From contig CADDZH010000119.1 in NCBI GenBank assembly GCA_902812455.1, positions 1 through 14,784 on the forward strand: DNA of 14,784 nt, written 5' to 3'. This document shows positions 1,345 through 12,081 of the stretch, one piece after another; the first letter of the stretch is position 1, and each line of letters starts with the position of its first letter. Under the pieces are notes generated by a model. That model did no database searches and was not told the origin of the DNA. It saw only the letters and a program-made list of their open reading frames with translations. The translations under genes and the position numbers were made by a program. The stretch is from Chloroflexota bacterium (lineage in GTDB: Bacteria > Chloroflexota > Ktedonobacteria > Ktedonobacterales > Ktedonobacteraceae).

Positions 1345-1506
1345 TGAGTGAGCGAAGAGCAAGGAGGCGCGAGGGCACGGGGACAAGCACCAGGCCCCTT
1401 CCCATCCGCGCCTGCACCCACAGCTTCGATACATCGAGCTTCTACTGTCCCTACAGGCAGCGATCCGCTTCCCAGGCGGATTCACATAAAAACCTACCCT
1501 TGTAAA
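1345..1506. repeat. Interspersed repeat element, copy A
   Basis: This is one of four related elements in the window (A; B at 5924-6057; C at 10680-10864; D at 11195-11362). The shared core is a GAGGGCA...AAG..CCCC segment, then a TCGATnnATCGA mini-hairpin (here 1426-1437), then CCCTACAGG. The right end, AAAACCTACCCTTGTAAA (1489-1506), is nearly the reverse complement of the left end of copy D (17 of 18 bases). Both ends of D carry the GGGTAGGTTTT motif. The left terminus of A has no matching inverted repeat and looks truncated. Read on the minus strand, A supplies the stop codon and last residues of the GT39 gene. Confidence 0.75.
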
Positions 1507-3247
1507 ACACCCCACACCCCGGCAAAGGACTCCGTCCTCTGCACTCTTGTCTTCCGCTAAAAGTATACTCCATGTTTTCAGGTTGGTAAATAACGTATCC
1601 TTCAAAGGAGAACGAGCGATAGCGCTTAGTAGAACCTGCCAGGGTATGCGCAAAGGTTTGCTGCTCTGGCGAGCCTGCTGGGAGCACATATGTGGCATTC
1701 GCGTCGTGTTCAACAATGGCCTGGTAGAGCGGATATCTATTCTGCCCCGGTTGGAGCTGATTATTGACAACGCTGCAGATGATCTGCTCATCGCTTTGAA
1801 ATATGATGCGATCGCATGTCCAGTAATCAGAATAGATATGCACAGCGTGAATGCTCAATAACTTCTCGACCAGCACTTGCTGCTGCTGGTTGGTAGCCTG
1901 CACCCCCGGCACCTGCTGAAAGGTATCAAACGTGCCGTTCAAGAGAACAGCCACGATCACGAGCAGGATCGCCCACCTCAAGACGCGCAGGGCAGTTATA
2001 AAGCCAGGTGCGAGCTCACCAGCAGGGATACGCGAGCAAAGAGGCGCAATGATCGCCGGAAGAGCGACCAGCAGGCCCACCAGGTAGCGGGAAGAGGTCA
2101 CGGGAACGAGCGCAGGAGCAGGACTGAGCAGGTAAGCGCATAAGGTCAGCCCGGCAATTCCCAGGAGCATGAGGCGAGCAGCATAACGAATAACCTTTTG
2201 CCTTTGTTCGGGTTCAGGCGAGCGCAAAAGGTGATAAGAAGCTAGCAAGTCTTTAAGTGTGAGAGCGACAGCTAGCAACCAGAGGAGGATAAAACCCAAT
2301 CCCCACCAGCCCTGCACCCATAAATAGGGCAGTTGCTCTTTCCACTGCCCAGGCACGGTGGTCATCGAGTAGAGCAGGCTGTCTGCCGTTGCCATCGGCA
2401 AACTGATCACGATCGTGCCAACGATACCATCCCACAAGGTATAGGGCAGGTGCGGAGAAGCTAAGCCTCCCGAACTATGCAGGCTCAAGAGCGTGGCAAC
2501 GAAGTTTTGCGCCGGATACTTCAGATCGAAGATAATTACCGGCAGCGCCCCTATCAACAGGCCTAGCAGGAGAAATACTGTGTTGCGTATGAATAATTCG
2601 CGGCGGCAAAACAGGACTAGAAAGAGCAAGGCCACAGCCACAAAGGGGATGATCAGCATGTGGCTCCAGAGAGCAAGTCCTATTACTACTCCCAGGCAGC
2701 CATAGATGGCAGAGCGCTGCCACCGGCGCGCTGGCCCGGCATCCGGCGTAAAGGAGAGCGCCAGCCAGGAAACGATGAGCACAATCAGAGCGCCAAACAG
2801 TATGGTTTCAAGATCGCCGCCGAGCGCTTTGAGCTGCCGCGTGAATGTTTCAATGGAGCCGAGGCTTAACAAAAAGAGCGTGATTAAGGCAATTCTTTTT
2901 GTATACAGCAGGCTGCTTAGCACATACATTACGAGGAGAAACAGGACATATAAAAAGACAAGACCAAGGCGCAGCGCGAAGGAAGAGGGGCCGAGCAGCC
3001 AGAACAAAGCAGCGCCAATATACGCTTCTATCGCACCCATATAGCTCTGGCCGTAAAGGTAGATGGGTAGCTCGCCTCGCGTAATAATATGCAAGGCCAT
3101 GAGGCCCATCGTTCCCTCATCGCTATTTATGGCAGGCCATCCCAGGCTAATCAACGCAATCCTGAGAGCTGCTGCAAATGCGATGATGAGTAGGGCGCCC
3201 AGTCCATACGGGCCAATCTTGACATACTTTCTGAGCCAGAGCATCAT
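1451..3247 (-). CDS. GT39/ArnT-like membrane glycosyltransferase
   Basis: This is a polytopic membrane protein of 598 residues with the layout of GT-C glycosyltransferases of the dolichyl-phosphate-mannose/ArnT superfamily. A first membrane helix (about 13-36) is followed by an extracytoplasmic loop carrying the Asp-Glu pair NSDEG (D43, E44), the acidic motif that serves as the catalytic site in PMT/ArnT enzymes. About ten further hydrophobic helices follow, with a C-terminal soluble domain after roughly residue 470. Such enzymes transfer a sugar from a polyprenyl-phosphate donor to a protein or lipid on the outer face of the membrane; the substrate here cannot be told. Two ATGs are adjacent at the start and the nearest purine-rich stretch (AAGGA) is rather far upstream. 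The last 32 or so residues (about 567-598), rich in Cys, Arg and Gly, are read from two repeat elements, and the stop lies in repeat A. The native C-terminus has therefore probably been replaced. Confidence 0.8.
   Translation of the reverse strand: MMLWLRKYVKIGPYGLGALLIIAFAAALRIALISLGWPAINSDEGTMGLMALHIITRGELPIYLYGQSYMGAIEAYIGAALFWLLGPSSFALRLGLVFLYVLFLLVMYVLSSLLYTKRIALITLFLLSLGSIETFTRQLKALGGDLETILFGALIVLIVSWLALSFTPDAGPARRWQRSAIYGCLGVVIGLALWSHMLIIPFVAVALLFLVLFCRRELFIRNTVFLLLGLLIGALPVIIFDLKYPAQNFVATLLSLHSSGGLASPHLPYTLWDGIVGTIVISLPMATADSLLYSMTTVPGQWKEQLPYLWVQGWWGLGFILLWLLAVALTLKDLLASYHLLRSPEPEQRQKVIRYAARLMLLGIAGLTLCAYLLSPAPALVPVTSSRYLVGLLVALPAIIAPLCSRIPAGELAPGFITALRVLRWAILLVIVAVLLNGTFDTFQQVPGVQATNQQQQVLVEKLLSIHAVHIYSDYWTCDRIIFQSDEQIICSVVNNQLQPGQNRYPLYQAIVEHDANATYVLPAGSPEQQTFAHTLAGSTKRYRSFSFEGYVIYQPENMEYTFSGRQECRGRSPLPGCGVFYKGRFLCESAWEADRCL
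1511..1549. repeat. Type-2 hairpin repeat, copy 1
   Basis: The stem GCA-a-AGGAC / GTCCT-c-TGC (1522-1530 with 1534-1542) is preceded by CCCACACCCCGG and followed by a C-rich tail. The same arrangement occurs at 3331-3366 (CCCAAACCCTGG, perfect stem, C-rich tail). Flanks match while the stem sequence differs. It abuts copy A and encodes part of the altered C-terminus of the GT39 protein. Confidence 0.6.
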
Positions 3248-5923: not shown

Positions 5924-6057
5924 CCATGATGAAATTTAACGACCAGGATCAGCGATGATAAGGAGAGGGGCGCGAGGGCAAGCACAAGGCCCCCACACCA
6001 CACCGCTCCACTCCTTGCCCCTACAGGCGACGATCTGGTTGGTAAAAATCATCATGG
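5924..6057. repeat. Interspersed repeat element, copy B
   Basis: The element is bounded by CCATGATGA (5924-5932) and TCATCATGG (6049-6057), perfect 9-bp terminal inverted repeats. Similarity continues inward: the left arm has ATTTAACGACCAG where the reverse complement of the right arm has TTTTTACCAACCAG. The core shares GAGGGCAAGCACAAGGCCCC and CCCCTACAGG with the other copies but lacks the TCGATnnATCGA mini-hairpin. It occupies nearly the whole gap between two convergent genes, and its right end contains the TGA stop codon of the DUF1501 gene. No target-site duplication is obvious. Confidence 0.8.
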
Positions 6058-7314
6058 TTGTGGCAAGAAGTTCTGCGAGCCGAACGAGCCTCCGAGGACA
6101 TCGCGTGAAGAAGTTCCAAGCCAGCGATCCAGGATCGTTGCGTAAACCGAGCGAAAATCAATGGTGTATTTGAGGTTGCCGACGGAATCGAGGTTAGTCA
6201 GGCTGGGCGGTTCGCCAAAGATGCCGTTATTGACGGGGTTGCCGAGCACAAACATCGGAGCTGCCGTGCCATGATCGGTGCCCAGGCTGCCGTTCTCTTC
6301 CACGCGCCGCCCAAACTCTGACCACGTCATAATCACCACATTATCCGCCTTCCCATGCCGGCTCAGATCGGTATAGAAGGCCGATAGCCCATCCGCCAGC
6401 GTCTTCATCAAGGCGTCGTGGGTTGCCTGCTGGTTAGCATGTGTGTCAAAGCCGCCAAGCGTCACATAACCAACGCGCAGCCCCAATCCCTGGACAATCG
6501 CTTCCGCCAGTATCTGCAGGCCCTGAGCAAACGAATCTTTCGGATAGCTCACGGCTGGATGATACTGTGCAGCGGCTTGATGCAGCTCCCGCGAGCCTTC
6601 CTGGGCATCCAGAGCGGTAGCATCGAGCAGGGCGGCATAGGGGGCCGTTTTGGGATAGGAATTGTAGAGATTCATCAACGCTTTGAGCCTGGCATTGCCG
6701 CCATCCATATCGGCAGGATCGGGATAAATGCGATAGGTGTTCACGCTTGATAATGTAGGCACGGGCGCGCTGATCGAGGAAAGGGCCTGCGCGGTCTGCA
6801 CACCAACATCCAGCGCCTTGAAGGGGTGGCCGTCCTGGTCAACCCAGCCTGCGACCAGCTTGCCGAGCCAGCCCTGGCTGCCGTTGCCTGTCAGGTCCAG
6901 CGTCTGCCAGATATCCATGGCCTGGAAGTGCGAGAGGCTCTGGTTGGGATAGCCGACGCCTTCGATAATGGCCATGTGCCCGGCATCCCATAGTTCCTTT
7001 AATGGCGCCAGGTTAGGATGCAGCCCTAGCCGTCCATCCAGCGAAAGCGCCTTCGATTGCGGTATGCCTATCGCCGGGCGCATCTGGTAGTATCGTGAGT
7101 CGGTATAGGGAATAACGGTGTTCAAGCCATCATTTCCACCGGCCAGTTGCACCACGATCAGCGTGCGGTCGCTGGCGGCCTGGGCGATGCGCGAGCCTTC
7201 GAGTGACTGCGCCCGTGCCGAGGCTATGCCCCGGCTGAAGATAGCCGGCATGACCATCCCTGCCGACACCACCAGTAATCCGTCTTTTATCATTGCTCTG
7301 CGAGTAAGTCTCAT
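6052..7314 (-). CDS. DUF1501 protein with Tat signal
   Basis: This 420-residue DUF1501 protein belongs to a family distantly related to alkaline phosphatase/sulfatase folds whose biochemical role is unknown. The start is fixed by AAAGGAG six bases before the ATG at 7314; the open frame continues upstream only because it runs through a hairpin repeat. The N-terminus is a twin-arginine signal (LTRRAMIKDG, Arg5-Arg6), followed by a hydrophobic stretch to about residue 26 and an AxA-type site (ASARAQS). Family hallmarks are QLAGGNDGLNT (56-66), and WSEFGRR (331-337) followed by GTDHG (345-349). It is therefore an exported, folded protein. It lies downstream of the DUF1800 gene on the same strand, the usual arrangement for this pair. 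The stop codon falls inside the terminal inverted repeat of element B, so the last residues may have been altered. Confidence 0.93.
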   Translation of the reverse strand: MRLTRRAMIKDGLLVVSAGMVMPAIFSRGIASARAQSLEGSRIAQAASDRTLIVVQLAGGNDGLNTVIPYTDSRYYQMRPAIGIPQSKALSLDGRLGLHPNLAPLKELWDAGHMAIIEGVGYPNQSLSHFQAMDIWQTLDLTGNGSQGWLGKLVAGWVDQDGHPFKALDVGVQTAQALSSISAPVPTLSSVNTYRIYPDPADMDGGNARLKALMNLYNSYPKTAPYAALLDATALDAQEGSRELHQAAAQYHPAVSYPKDSFAQGLQILAEAIVQGLGLRVGYVTLGGFDTHANQQATHDALMKTLADGLSAFYTDLSRHGKADNVVIMTWSEFGRRVEENGSLGTDHGTAAPMFVLGNPVNNGIFGEPPSLTNLDSVGNLKYTIDFRSVYATILDRWLGTSSRDVLGGSFGSQNFLPQP

Positions 7315-7320
7315 GGTAAT

Positions 7321-7327
7321 CTCCTTT
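7321..7327 (-). promoter_or_regulatory. Ribosome-binding site fixing the DUF1501 start
   Basis: On the minus strand this reads AAAGGAG, six bases before the ATG at 7314. It is the best Shine-Dalgarno sequence in the window. It rules out the upstream in-frame start at 7413, which would add 33 residues encoded by repeat DNA. Confidence 0.85.
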
Positions 7328-7364
7328 ATTGGTTCTCCGTCCTTTGGGGTGATCGACGAGAAGT

Positions 7365-7408
7365 AGCCGATAAATCGGCGGTGGGCGCAATGAATTGCGC
7401 CCCTACGG
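7365..7408. repeat. Hairpin repeat with leader, copy 1
   Basis: AGCCGATAAATCGGCGGT, containing the mini-palindrome CCGAT-AA-ATCGG, is followed by the stem GGGCGCAAT / ATTGCGCCC on a 2-base loop and the end CCTACGG. A second copy lies 120 bp away at 7485-7527 with the same leader and end but a different hairpin arm. Both lie in the 222-bp gap between the DUF1800 and DUF1501 genes. Confidence 0.8.
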
Positions 7409-7484
7409 TTCACCCGGAAGGATGGAGACCCCCTTTATTATGGATATTGACGAATTCATACTGACATGATTGTCATTCCATGTA

Positions 7485-7527
7485 AGCCGATAAATCGGCG
7501 GTGGGCGCGATAAATCGGCCCCTACGG
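7485..7527. repeat. Hairpin repeat with leader, copy 2
   Basis: This has the same 18-bp leader as the copy at 7365-7408. The hairpin arm then reads GGGC-g-CGAT-aa-ATCG-GCCC and ends in CCCTACGG. Nine bases separate it from the DUF1800 stop codon, so it sits just downstream of that gene in the putative operon. Confidence 0.75.
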
Positions 7528-7536
7528 CCAACCTGC

Positions 7537-9613: not shown

Positions 9614-9668
9614 AATGCGATGGAGAGGCGAATCGGCGCCCAATGCGATGGAGAGGCGAATCGGCGCC
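9614..9668. repeat. Two-copy direct tandem repeat
   Basis: A 27-bp sequence beginning AATGCGATGGAGAGGCGAAT and ending CGGCGCC occurs at 9614-9640 and again, identically, at 9642-9668 (period 28). With only two copies and a one-base separation it is not a CRISPR array. Confidence 0.85.
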
Positions 9669-9675
9669 TAAAGCA

Positions 9676-9777: not shown

Positions 9778-9873
9778 GCCATCCTGAGCGCAGCCTGCAG
9801 ATCTCTGTCGATGGGCAGCGGATGTTTCCCCTTCACGCGCGTTCAGGGCTGCGGCTCACTCGCTCAGGATGAC
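9778..9873. repeat. CATCCTGAGCG inverted-repeat element
   Basis: GCCATCCTGAGCG (9778-9790) and CGCTCAGGATGAC (9861-9873) are terminal inverted repeats matching at 12 of 13 positions around about 70 bp without coding sense. The sequence resembles none of the other repeats here, so it is a separate family. It ends 69 bp before the glycosyltransferase start codon. Confidence 0.75.
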
Positions 9874-9942
9874 ATGTCTGGACTTTTCTGGTGATTGAAG
9901 CATTATCACGTTGATTTGAACCTTGCCTAACGGGAATATTTT

Positions 9943-12081
9943 ATGTTGAAAAAAACGCAAGTAGCGACAATGGCCACCTTACCAGCATTGGGGCTGGAGC
10001 GCGTCCTGGCTATTGCCAGTTTTGTGGCTATGCTGTGTTCGATTCTTTTCCTGGATGCCGTATTGCCGCTGGCCGGCTTCTGGCTGCATACTTCCTTGCT
10101 CACGGAGCTTGGTTCCTGGCCATTACTGCCCACTCATCTGCTTTTCCCAGGGCGGGCTATTAGCTCCTCGATCAGCGGCGTACATCCTGGTATTCCGCCA
10201 TCTATCATACTTAGCTGGCAAGAGGTGCCGCTCTTTTTCCTGGCTCTTGTGCTGCTGTTTGCCTGCTACCTGCTGGCTTTACGCTACGTGGTTCCCCATA
10301 TTTCCAACGTGCGCCTGATCCTGTATTCTACATTCCTGCTGGGCCTCCTCTACGCGATCATTCCCGTTGTCACTTCGCTGGATGTGTTTTCCTATATTAG
10401 CTACGCCCGTATAGGCATCATCCACCATCTCAATCCTCTGACTACTTTGCCAATCAGCATTCGTCCAGATCCCATCCTCGCTCATATTACCTGGCTGAAT
10501 CAGCCGTCGGCCTACGGCCCCACCTGGATCGCTCTGACCAGCCTCTTCCAATGGGGCACGCTTGTTGCCTTCGGCGCGCAGGCCCTGCTGCCCATGCTCC
10601 TCGCGCTGCGCGTGTGGGGACTGGTTACGCATCTCAGCTCGACGCTGCTTATCTGGGCAATTACCGGTCGCCTGCAAAGCCTGATGATTTTTTCCAATCA
10701 AAAGAGGAAAGAGGATTGGCGGGAGGAACGAGGGCACAAGGACAAGGCGCAAGGCCCCCACACCACGCAACACCACCCACGGCTTCGATCAATCGAGCCT
10801 CTACAGCCCCTACAGGTACGGTCCAATTCGTCATTACCTCATCTGACCGAAAAAAATCATCAGGGAGCCGATGCTCGTTCCAAACGCATATTCATTACCG
10901 CTGCCTTCGCCTGGAACCCGTTGCTGCTTTTCGAGGCCTGCGTCAACGCTCACAACGATTCCTCGGTCTTACTTCTGGTTTTGCTTGCCATCTGGTTTCT
11001 CTTATCTGAGACCTCGCCTGAAAAGCAGGCGCATAATCTCGTGCAAAGGATTCCCTGGCTGGCTATTATCATGCTTGCTCTTGCCACCTGCCTCAAACTG
11101 AACACGGTCTTGCTCGTGCCCGGCCTGCTTATTTTCTTATGGAAGCAATGGCCCAGCAGGCAAACAACGCAGAGAGCCAGGGCGAGGGCCAGCATTTACA
11201 GGGGTAGGTTTTCTGGGGCAAGAGAGGAGCGTACGAGGCGCGAGGGCAAGCACAAGGCCCCTTCCACCCATCCACATCCACTCACGGCTTCGATAAATCG
11301 AGCCTCTACAGCCCCTACAGGTATAATCCGCTTACGAGGCGGGTTCACGGAAAAACCTACCCTCGATGGGTCATACAATGGTGCTCTTCTGGCTGTTGGG
11401 GGAACGCTGTGCGTTTATGGAGCGATTATTCTCTTGCTATATGCGCCCTTCTGGCAGCATGGAGCCATTTTAGATGTCTTTCTGGCAAATCCGACCGCCT
11501 CTCGCAATATCAACTCGCTCGCTGAGTTCGTGAGCCGCCTCTACAACAGCATTCGCGTTGATCTGGGGTACCCGGCACCGGCAGTTATCGGCTCGCCTTC
11601 CGAGCATATTACCCATGACCTCAGTCTTGTCATCTTTGTCGTGCTCTACTGCTGGCTCTGCTGGCGGGCTATGAGCAACCGGCAGGCTTTGCTCACGCTG
11701 CCCAATCTGATCGGTTGGATGGCGCTGACCTGGCTGCTCTACTGTGCCATCGGGTCTCCCTGGTTCTGGCCCTGGTACACGGTCATCTTCTTCGGCCTCT
11801 ATGCCCTCCTGGGGGTAACATCTGATGAGAAGTCCTGGCTGCGTAGCTCTTCTGAGTCATCTCCGGCCATCATTCTCCTCGCATTCGCGATGCTGCTCAT
11901 CTACCTGACCTACGTCTGGGGGCCGCATAAAACCGATATGCCAGGGCTGATAACTTTCCAGTGGGGCTATCTCAGAGGCTTATGGGTCTTACTGCTTCCA
12001 CTCTTCATCACGCGCTGGCGCTTTTACCCTGCTATCAAACAAAAGGATCATGGGCTGTTACAAAAGCCCAGCGGACAATGA
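9943..12081 (+). CDS. GT-C membrane glycosyltransferase with two in-frame repeat insertions
   Basis: This 712-residue polytopic membrane protein resembles polyprenol-phosphate-dependent mannosyltransferases of the MptA/MptB or GT87 type. Hallmarks are an early hydrophobic core, then DVFSYISYAR (D147 onward) with LNP (163-165), AYGPTW (190-195), FAWNPLLLFE (322-331) followed by AHND (336-339), and many further helices to about residue 700. It probably transfers a sugar from a lipid carrier on the outer membrane face; donor and acceptor are unknown. Residues about 246-308 and 420-474 are hydrophilic, basic and low in family character. They coincide exactly with repeat elements C and D, yet the frame stays open. 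Without them the protein would be near 595 residues. Both inserts are Lys/Arg/His-rich and lie between membrane helices, probably in cytoplasmic loops. The stop overlaps the next start as ATGA, so the two genes are translationally coupled. Whether the product is functional is not shown. Confidence 0.82.
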   Translation: MLKKTQVATMATLPALGLERVLAIASFVAMLCSILFLDAVLPLAGFWLHTSLLTELGSWPLLPTHLLFPGRAISSSISGVHPGIPPSIILSWQEVPLFFLALVLLFACYLLALRYVVPHISNVRLILYSTFLLGLLYAIIPVVTSLDVFSYISYARIGIIHHLNPLTTLPISIRPDPILAHITWLNQPSAYGPTWIALTSLFQWGTLVAFGAQALLPMLLALRVWGLVTHLSSTLLIWAITGRLQSLMIFSNQKRKEDWREERGHKDKAQGPHTTQHHPRLRSIEPLQPLQVRSNSSLPHLTEKNHQGADARSKRIFITAAFAWNPLLLFEACVNAHNDSSVLLLVLLAIWFLLSETSPEKQAHNLVQRIPWLAIIMLALATCLKLNTVLLVPGLLIFLWKQWPSRQTTQRARARASIYRGRFSGAREERTRREGKHKAPSTHPHPLTASINRASTAPTGIIRLRGGFTEKPTLDGSYNGALLAVGGTLCVYGAIILLLYAPFWQHGAILDVFLANPTASRNINSLAEFVSRLYNSIRVDLGYPAPAVIGSPSEHITHDLSLVIFVVLYCWLCWRAMSNRQALLTLPNLIGWMALTWLLYCAIGSPWFWPWYTVIFFGLYALLGVTSDEKSWLRSSSESSPAIILLAFAMLLIYLTYVWGPHKTDMPGLITFQWGYLRGLWVLLLPLFITRWRFYPAIKQKDHGLLQKPSGQ
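10680..10864. repeat. Interspersed repeat element, copy C, inside a gene
   Basis: The terminal inverted repeats are CCTGATGATTTTTTCC (10680-10695) and, at 10849-10864, the reverse complement of CCTGATGATTTTTTTC. These ends resemble those of copy B (CCATGATGATTTTTACC). The core matches the other copies: GAGGGCACAAGG, GGCCCCC, the mini-hairpin TCGAT-ca-ATCGA (10785-10796) and CCCCTACAGGTA. The element is 185 bp and contains no stop in the glycosyltransferase frame, where it encodes about 63 residues. The core is read one base out of register compared with copy D. No clear target duplication is seen. Confidence 0.85.
11195..11362. repeat. Interspersed repeat element, copy D, inside a gene
   Basis: GGGTAGGTTTT (11202-11212) and AAAACCTACCC (11352-11362) are perfect 11-bp inverted repeats. 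The left end extends outward to TTTACA (11195-11200), matching the outer end of copy A. The core has GAGGCGCGAGGGCAAGCACA, the mini-hairpin TCGAT-aa-ATCGA (11290-11301) and CCCCTACAGGTA. The right part, with CCGCTT, GGCGGGTTCAC and the terminal repeat, is very close to copy A. It is read through by the glycosyltransferase frame as about 55 residues. Confidence 0.85.

Follow-up and report, generated by a model that had tools for sequence, protein, structure and literature searches.

Elements in the window

The window, by which we mean the whole 14.8-kb stretch of DNA analysed, contains four copies (A, B, C and D) of a core of about 90 nt, carried on elements of 134-187 bp with no transposase inside them (Table 1). 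Two of these small mobile repeats, C and D, lie within one soil-bacterium enzyme gene and leave its reading frame unbroken. The initial annotation had placed both inside a single open frame, and the ORF at 9943-12081 does run without an internal stop. Its description of C and D as genuine repeats with a shared core and inverted ends was likewise borne out by blastn within the window, where the two were 83% identical across 93 columns (E 4e-19). The same search gave 79% across 130 for A and D (E 3e-26), 77% across 97 for A and C (E 3e-14) and 25 of 25 for B and D (E 2e-8). With identities of 77-83% over the three long alignments, the copies do not look like a fresh burst.

Table 1. Positions of the repeat elements and their host gene in the window.
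Feature	Positions	Strand	Remarks
Element A: core and type-1 right end, left end decayed	1350..1507	+	
Element B: shorter core copy, type-2 ends	5924..6057	+	
Intergenic REP, of a family found in frame in G006 genes	7485..7529	.	resembles loop peptides of P0076 and P0088
Membrane glycosyltransferase-like gene with elements C and D in frame	9943..12081	+	712 codons
Element C: core and type-2 ends (CCNTGATGATTTTT)	10679..10865	+	residues 246-304
Element D: core and type-1 (IS4-like) ends	11195..11369	+	about residues 418-474

Two types of end were observed, type-1 common to A and D and type-2 common to B and C, the latter occurring four times in the window against 0.18 expected. The arms of C (10680-10710 and 10834-10864) are 81% complementary. 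Because the inverted ends of D fall near 11195-11214 and 11350-11369, we kept its earlier start and moved its end from 11362 to the limit given in Table 1. The shared core is read in two registers, as had been proposed, with D reading LTASINRASTAPTG where C reads RLRSIEPLQPLQ. The inserts had also been described as made of basic residues, which overstates their composition: they are mildly basic, with 11 K+R and 7 D+E in residues 246-304, and 12 K+R and 4 D+E in residues 418-474. That the elements are removed at the RNA level or bypassed in translation, giving a protein without them, we consider almost inconceivable; the inverted ends, and nothing else, speak for it, whereas the inserts have kept an open frame, something unnecessary if they were removed, and an Rfam scan of the window returned no family match.

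Elements A and B overlap the ends of genes. Element A supplies the last 18 codons and the stop of the gene at 1451-3247 on the minus strand (overlap 1451-1507), and at any of residues 581-598 of the encoded protein, the end derived from A, no more than 3 of 119 homologues have a residue. The right end of element B (6044-6057) holds the TGA stop of the minus-strand gene at 6052-7413. Other repeats were observed just upstream of the glycosyltransferase-like gene, where positions 9778-9880 form an inverted repeat of the CATCCTGAGCG type. It resembles the CATTCTGAGCGCAGCGAAG repeats of G006, a genome of the same order, as well as a loop peptide of the homologue P0107, VILSAAKD..ALRMT, and falls outside the stricter G006-repeat pattern. 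Two tandem 28-bp copies, 96% alike, occupy the intergenic positions 9614-9669.

The host protein and its inserts

The protein-database entry for the ORF at 9943-12081 has 703 aa, this version probably starting at Met-10. Its homologues are multi-pass membrane proteins, the named ones from Ktedonobacteraceae, and PF26314 or PF13231 is present in many of those listed; a Pfam scan of the window protein itself gave no match. An AlphaFold2 model, for which the input was the window protein with 54 of 119 homologues, reached a pLDDT of 77.9 and a pTM of 0.82. Foldseek found no matches to this model at E<=0.001, and the top match, a weak one, was 9wno, a GPI mannosyltransferase I (E 0.07; TM 0.64 by target length and 0.40 by query). 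The product would be a GT-C enzyme whose active site faces outward, and we regard the protein as GT-C-like with moderate confidence only. The gene that follows encodes MGDG-synthase and GT28 domains.

The inserts were compared with 119 homologues, which are the 120 listed of 535 matches minus the window's own protein. Each of the positions 246-303 in the C insert was filled in 0 or 1 of these 119, and positions 420-474 in the D insert in at most 15 of 119, the latter being sometimes filled because the D loop varies in other species too. Compared with the homologues, both inserts are additional sequence. Among the 119 listed homologues the C loop measures 2-13 residues (median 4), compared with 63 in the window protein, and the D loop 3-59 residues (median 7, with at least 20 in 16 of the 119), compared with 80. 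Other homologues carry other inserts in the D loop, some of them repeat-derived. An assembly or binning artefact at the repeats would fit a single metagenome contig and a 712-aa protein with one member sequence in the protein database. We consider it extremely improbable, as both inserts are in frame, the family sequence picks up at the expected residue on either side of each, and the neighbouring protein ending in element A has four member sequences.

Both inserts are in predicted cytoplasmic loops, the sides being assigned from the order of helices in the model and the mean loop charge over homologues. The segments at C and D, at 114-124, 354-373 and 574-587, and at the C-terminus were net positive over homologues. 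Segment 623-641 was slightly negative, though inside by helix order, and the remaining hydrophilic segments had charges of -1.1 to +0.1, except the five-residue turn 384-388 at +1. Stretches modelled with pLDDT <50 were 280-297, 442-463 and 465-468. Up to about residue 269, insert C was modelled as a confident helix continuing the preceding one, which argues against a purely disordered insert.

Such a helix extension, together with mildly basic inserts predicted to face the cytoplasm, would be consistent with recruitment of the inserts, for example for binding or regulation on the cytoplasmic side. We nevertheless find recruitment highly unlikely: C and D translate their common core in different registers, homologues have unrelated inserts or none, and a word search for the D peptide among 5.8 billion proteins (four candidates) found only the window protein.

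The DNA of element D was found in 0 of 4 genomes and in no plasmid, and patterns of the core and right half of the elements matched 0 viral contigs. In the family set, 4 of 29 genomes matched the D DNA at E<=0.01, with 17 short core matches in G014 and one short match each in G005, G008 and G029; in the order, 3 of 47 genomes matched at 0.001. The core recurs in G014 (loci L006-L025), where it lies within palindrome pairs whose outer end is different, and it may thus be carried in more than one kind of shell.

Repeats in the loops of homologues

Segments at least 12 residues above the median numbered 47, in 43 of the 119 listed homologues. Twenty-one of these were located at 353-374, 16 at 400-492 (the D loop), 5 at 622-645, 4 at 114-124 and 1 at 574-585. 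When compared with 1.98 Mb of relatives' DNA, excluding the glycosyltransferase loci and the window, 4 of the 47 matched at E<=0.001 against 0.125 expected from shuffles; there were 6 matches at 0.01 (1.3 expected) and 9 at 0.05 (5.7 expected). The matches at E<=0.001 came from P0025 and P0026 (the same loop), whose loop matches internal sequence of a G029 type-1 element, and from P0076 and P0088, whose loops match G006 REPs and the window REP at 7485-7529. In the D loop of a homologue from G042, a genome of the same order outside the family set, a CCCAGCCCCTCTCCC-type repeat is present twice at the DNA level, and this pattern has 185 matches in G042 and none in the reversed control. Of the loop-D versions read at the DNA level in relatives, a recognised repeat was observed in 1 of 28 distinct ones, that of G042. 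Further segments are repeat-like by eye and individually not significant, namely GRPRGSPLH (P0034, P0036, P0037, P0039), QGDRKGRPYN-like (P0063, P0087) and GKDKGRPYN (P0102). On the side of the membrane where C and D lie, some homologues have loops with other in-frame repeats.

Origin of the element ends

In related genomes, the type-1 ends of A and D belong to an IS4-like insertion sequence and to miniature elements derived from it (MITEs). The two ends of D differ from the type-1 end by 2 and 5 mismatches of 20, and A keeps the right end only. With up to 2 mismatches allowed, 6 of 29 family genomes contained the type-1 end TTACANGGGTAGGTTTTTTGG, most copies being in G008 (19), G029 (14) and G010 (11), giving at least 48 matches compared with 3 for the reversed pattern. 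Type-1 ends in G010, a relative, bound intact 1412-bp elements with a 427-aa transposase, which matched NF033591 at E 1.8e-20 (73 bits, under the curated cut-off of 152) and PF01609 at E 2e-4 (21.5, under the curated cut-off of 23). Perfect 11-bp target duplications flanked 6 of 25 candidate end pairs in relatives and duplications with 10 of 11 positions another 3, these 25 including alternatives for one element. No target duplication is left at element D, whose flanks agree at chance level (0.33), and none was visible on reading the flanks of element C. Because they carry IS4-like terminal repeats, A and D are, on sequence, best called MITEs of an IS4-like transposon family rather than RPEs, the Rickettsia palindromic elements to which the initial annotation had likened C and D. 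The RPE-like behaviour that it proposed for a Chloroflexota-type genome is supported, and the way homologues and loci are named points to a Ktedonobacteraceae-like lineage.

Type-2 ends were matched loosely in 19 of 29 family genomes (42 matches compared with 7 for the reversed pattern). No convincing pairs were found in the 29 genomes; 3 loose pairs of <400 bp among 30 loci had unmatched flanks. As pairs, the ends of B and C were observed in this window alone.

Eight of nine type-1 elements in G008 were observed in the centre of REP palindromes (L115, L119, L120, L121, L123, L124, L125 and L128), or 8 of 17 across G008, G029 and G010, the control being 160 of 20,000 random 60-mers of G008. 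A test of whether D itself had inserted into an older REP gave no support for that idea. The G010 loci C1:10847 and C2:10847 hold the same type-1 element at the same coordinate of two contigs, as if the contig ends had been duplicated.

In-frame repeats in other genes and genomes

Across 400 kb of G006 there were 63 repeat intervals, 10 of them inside frames of at least 150 aa. Nine frames were involved, and all eight that were scanned, a 158-aa frame being excluded, have a Pfam domain. A stricter cut over 800 kb placed 7 of 53 intervals inside frames. Among those clearly internal, the repeat in RecJ (440-454) is between the part aligned to a solved RecJ (to 439) and the next (from 504), that in an AMP-binding enzyme is inside the domain (186-200), that in a hybrid histidine kinase is between domains and that in an alpha/beta hydrolase is inside the domain. 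Contigs C1 and C3 of G006 are densely populated with repeats and C30 and C39 have few, so G006 may be a mixed bin.

Around 40 of 100 places listed in G042, 7 of 49 repeat clusters were inside frames of at least 200 aa, and 5 of these 7 frames have a Pfam domain. Clear internal cases were a PEP-utilising enzyme, an MFS transporter and the glycosyltransferase homologue. The MFS transporter (L299:1785-3212) has about 60 repeat-derived residues near its middle, perhaps in the central cytoplasmic loop. Some of the G006 and G042 repeats precede the first Pfam domain of their frame and may be upstream of the real start. None of the repeat intervals in G008, which is rich in type-1 elements (0 of 15 and 0 of 27), or in G018 (0 of 1) was inside a long frame. 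In G010, 9 of 12 intervals were inside frames, but at least 8 of these are tandem repeats belonging to two proteins, and the remaining one is ambiguous. In G006 and G042, which belong to the same order, other enzymes do contain repeats in frame.

Discussion

In-frame palindromes in genes are already known, as RPEs in Rickettsia, as REPs and as QMITEs. One review describes RPEs as short inverted-repeat elements found in frame inside conserved genes, each encoding a conserved peptide (PMC10969869). Elements C and D are likewise short inverted-repeat elements in frame in a conserved gene. They differ from the RPEs so described, the comparison being by description only, in that their core is read in two registers with no conserved element-encoded peptide, in their host and in the derivation of type-1 ends from an IS4-like transposon. 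GTAG/CGTC REPs are reported to occur inside genes, with double insertions in uvrA and insertions at about the same recB site in two species; they supply stop codons, and loops were proposed as tolerant (PMC3733652). The window elements resemble them in being intragenic, in occurring twice in one gene and in supplying stops. These REPs are palindromes of 20-40 bp, however, whereas C and D measure 175-187 bp and carry terminal inverted repeats; the REP insertions of G006 are nearer to that class. The Coxiella elements QMITE1 and QMITE2 are MITEs that, as reported, overlap gene ends and give stops and basic C-terminal residues; they are sometimes in frame within genes, mid-gene in hypothetical proteins and at the 3' end in known genes (PMC5896051). 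Elements of the window also overlap gene ends, supply stops and occur in frame; unlike those QMITEs, they have other sequences and have struck a conserved enzyme family twice mid-gene. Within the accessible parts of the open-licence literature on Ktedonobacter, Chloroflexi and Chloroflexota, including PMC12306157, no report of in-frame repeats was found.

We think it very probable that old transposable elements, non-autonomous and now decayed, account for C and D. Such elements would have inserted at random, here in a membrane glycosyltransferase gene, with selection keeping those in frame in tolerant loops. Both would have arrived by transposition and would now be translated. Insertion would be random as to frame, with one length in three preserving it; about one in five frames of elements like these would be open, so that roughly one random insertion in fourteen would leave the gene open. 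Insertions breaking the frame or striking a constrained part would be purged, and those in cytoplasm-facing loops, away from the expected outside active site, would survive and decay while selection holds the frame open. Across the order the same process would act on further genes, in further species and with different repeat families. By itself the added peptide probably brings no benefit, and it would be neutral.

We also considered that the gene is dead or dying, with inserts open by luck in a non-functional protein. Composition shuffling left any given frame open with a probability of 0.07 in C or 0.11 in D, so luck is not absurd, and the elements have somewhat more open frames than their shuffles. 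Fifteen elements of relatives had 20 of 90 frames open compared with 12.7 in dinucleotide shuffles (6 of 500 reached 20), and the window's four elements had 6 of 24 compared with 3.9 (82 of 500), an excess that is only a hint because the elements are related and their frames correlated. A dead gene is nevertheless unlikely. The entire 712-codon frame is open and retains the 72 or so invariant family columns, and the 17-23% divergence of A-D over the long alignments, together with the lost duplication at D, indicates that time has passed without a stop appearing.

Selfish repeats in frame have been discussed mostly from Rickettsia and some other proteobacteria, and here they are observed in a Chloroflexota lineage. 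A broader proposal, which we rate at somewhat less than an even chance, is that several Ktedonobacteria, with their large free-living genomes, take palindromic repeats into coding genes often enough for these to be a regular source of new protein segments, that one membrane enzyme family records repeated colonisation of its cytoplasmic loops by unrelated repeats, and that the repeats may have drifted to open frames. As a caution, some of the loop-length variation in Chloroflexota proteins is repeat-derived. A conserved enzyme family allows several insertions to be compared side by side, and such a family is a natural insertion scan, showing where a membrane protein tolerates foreign sequence; with strain data, it could separate neutral tolerance from recruitment.
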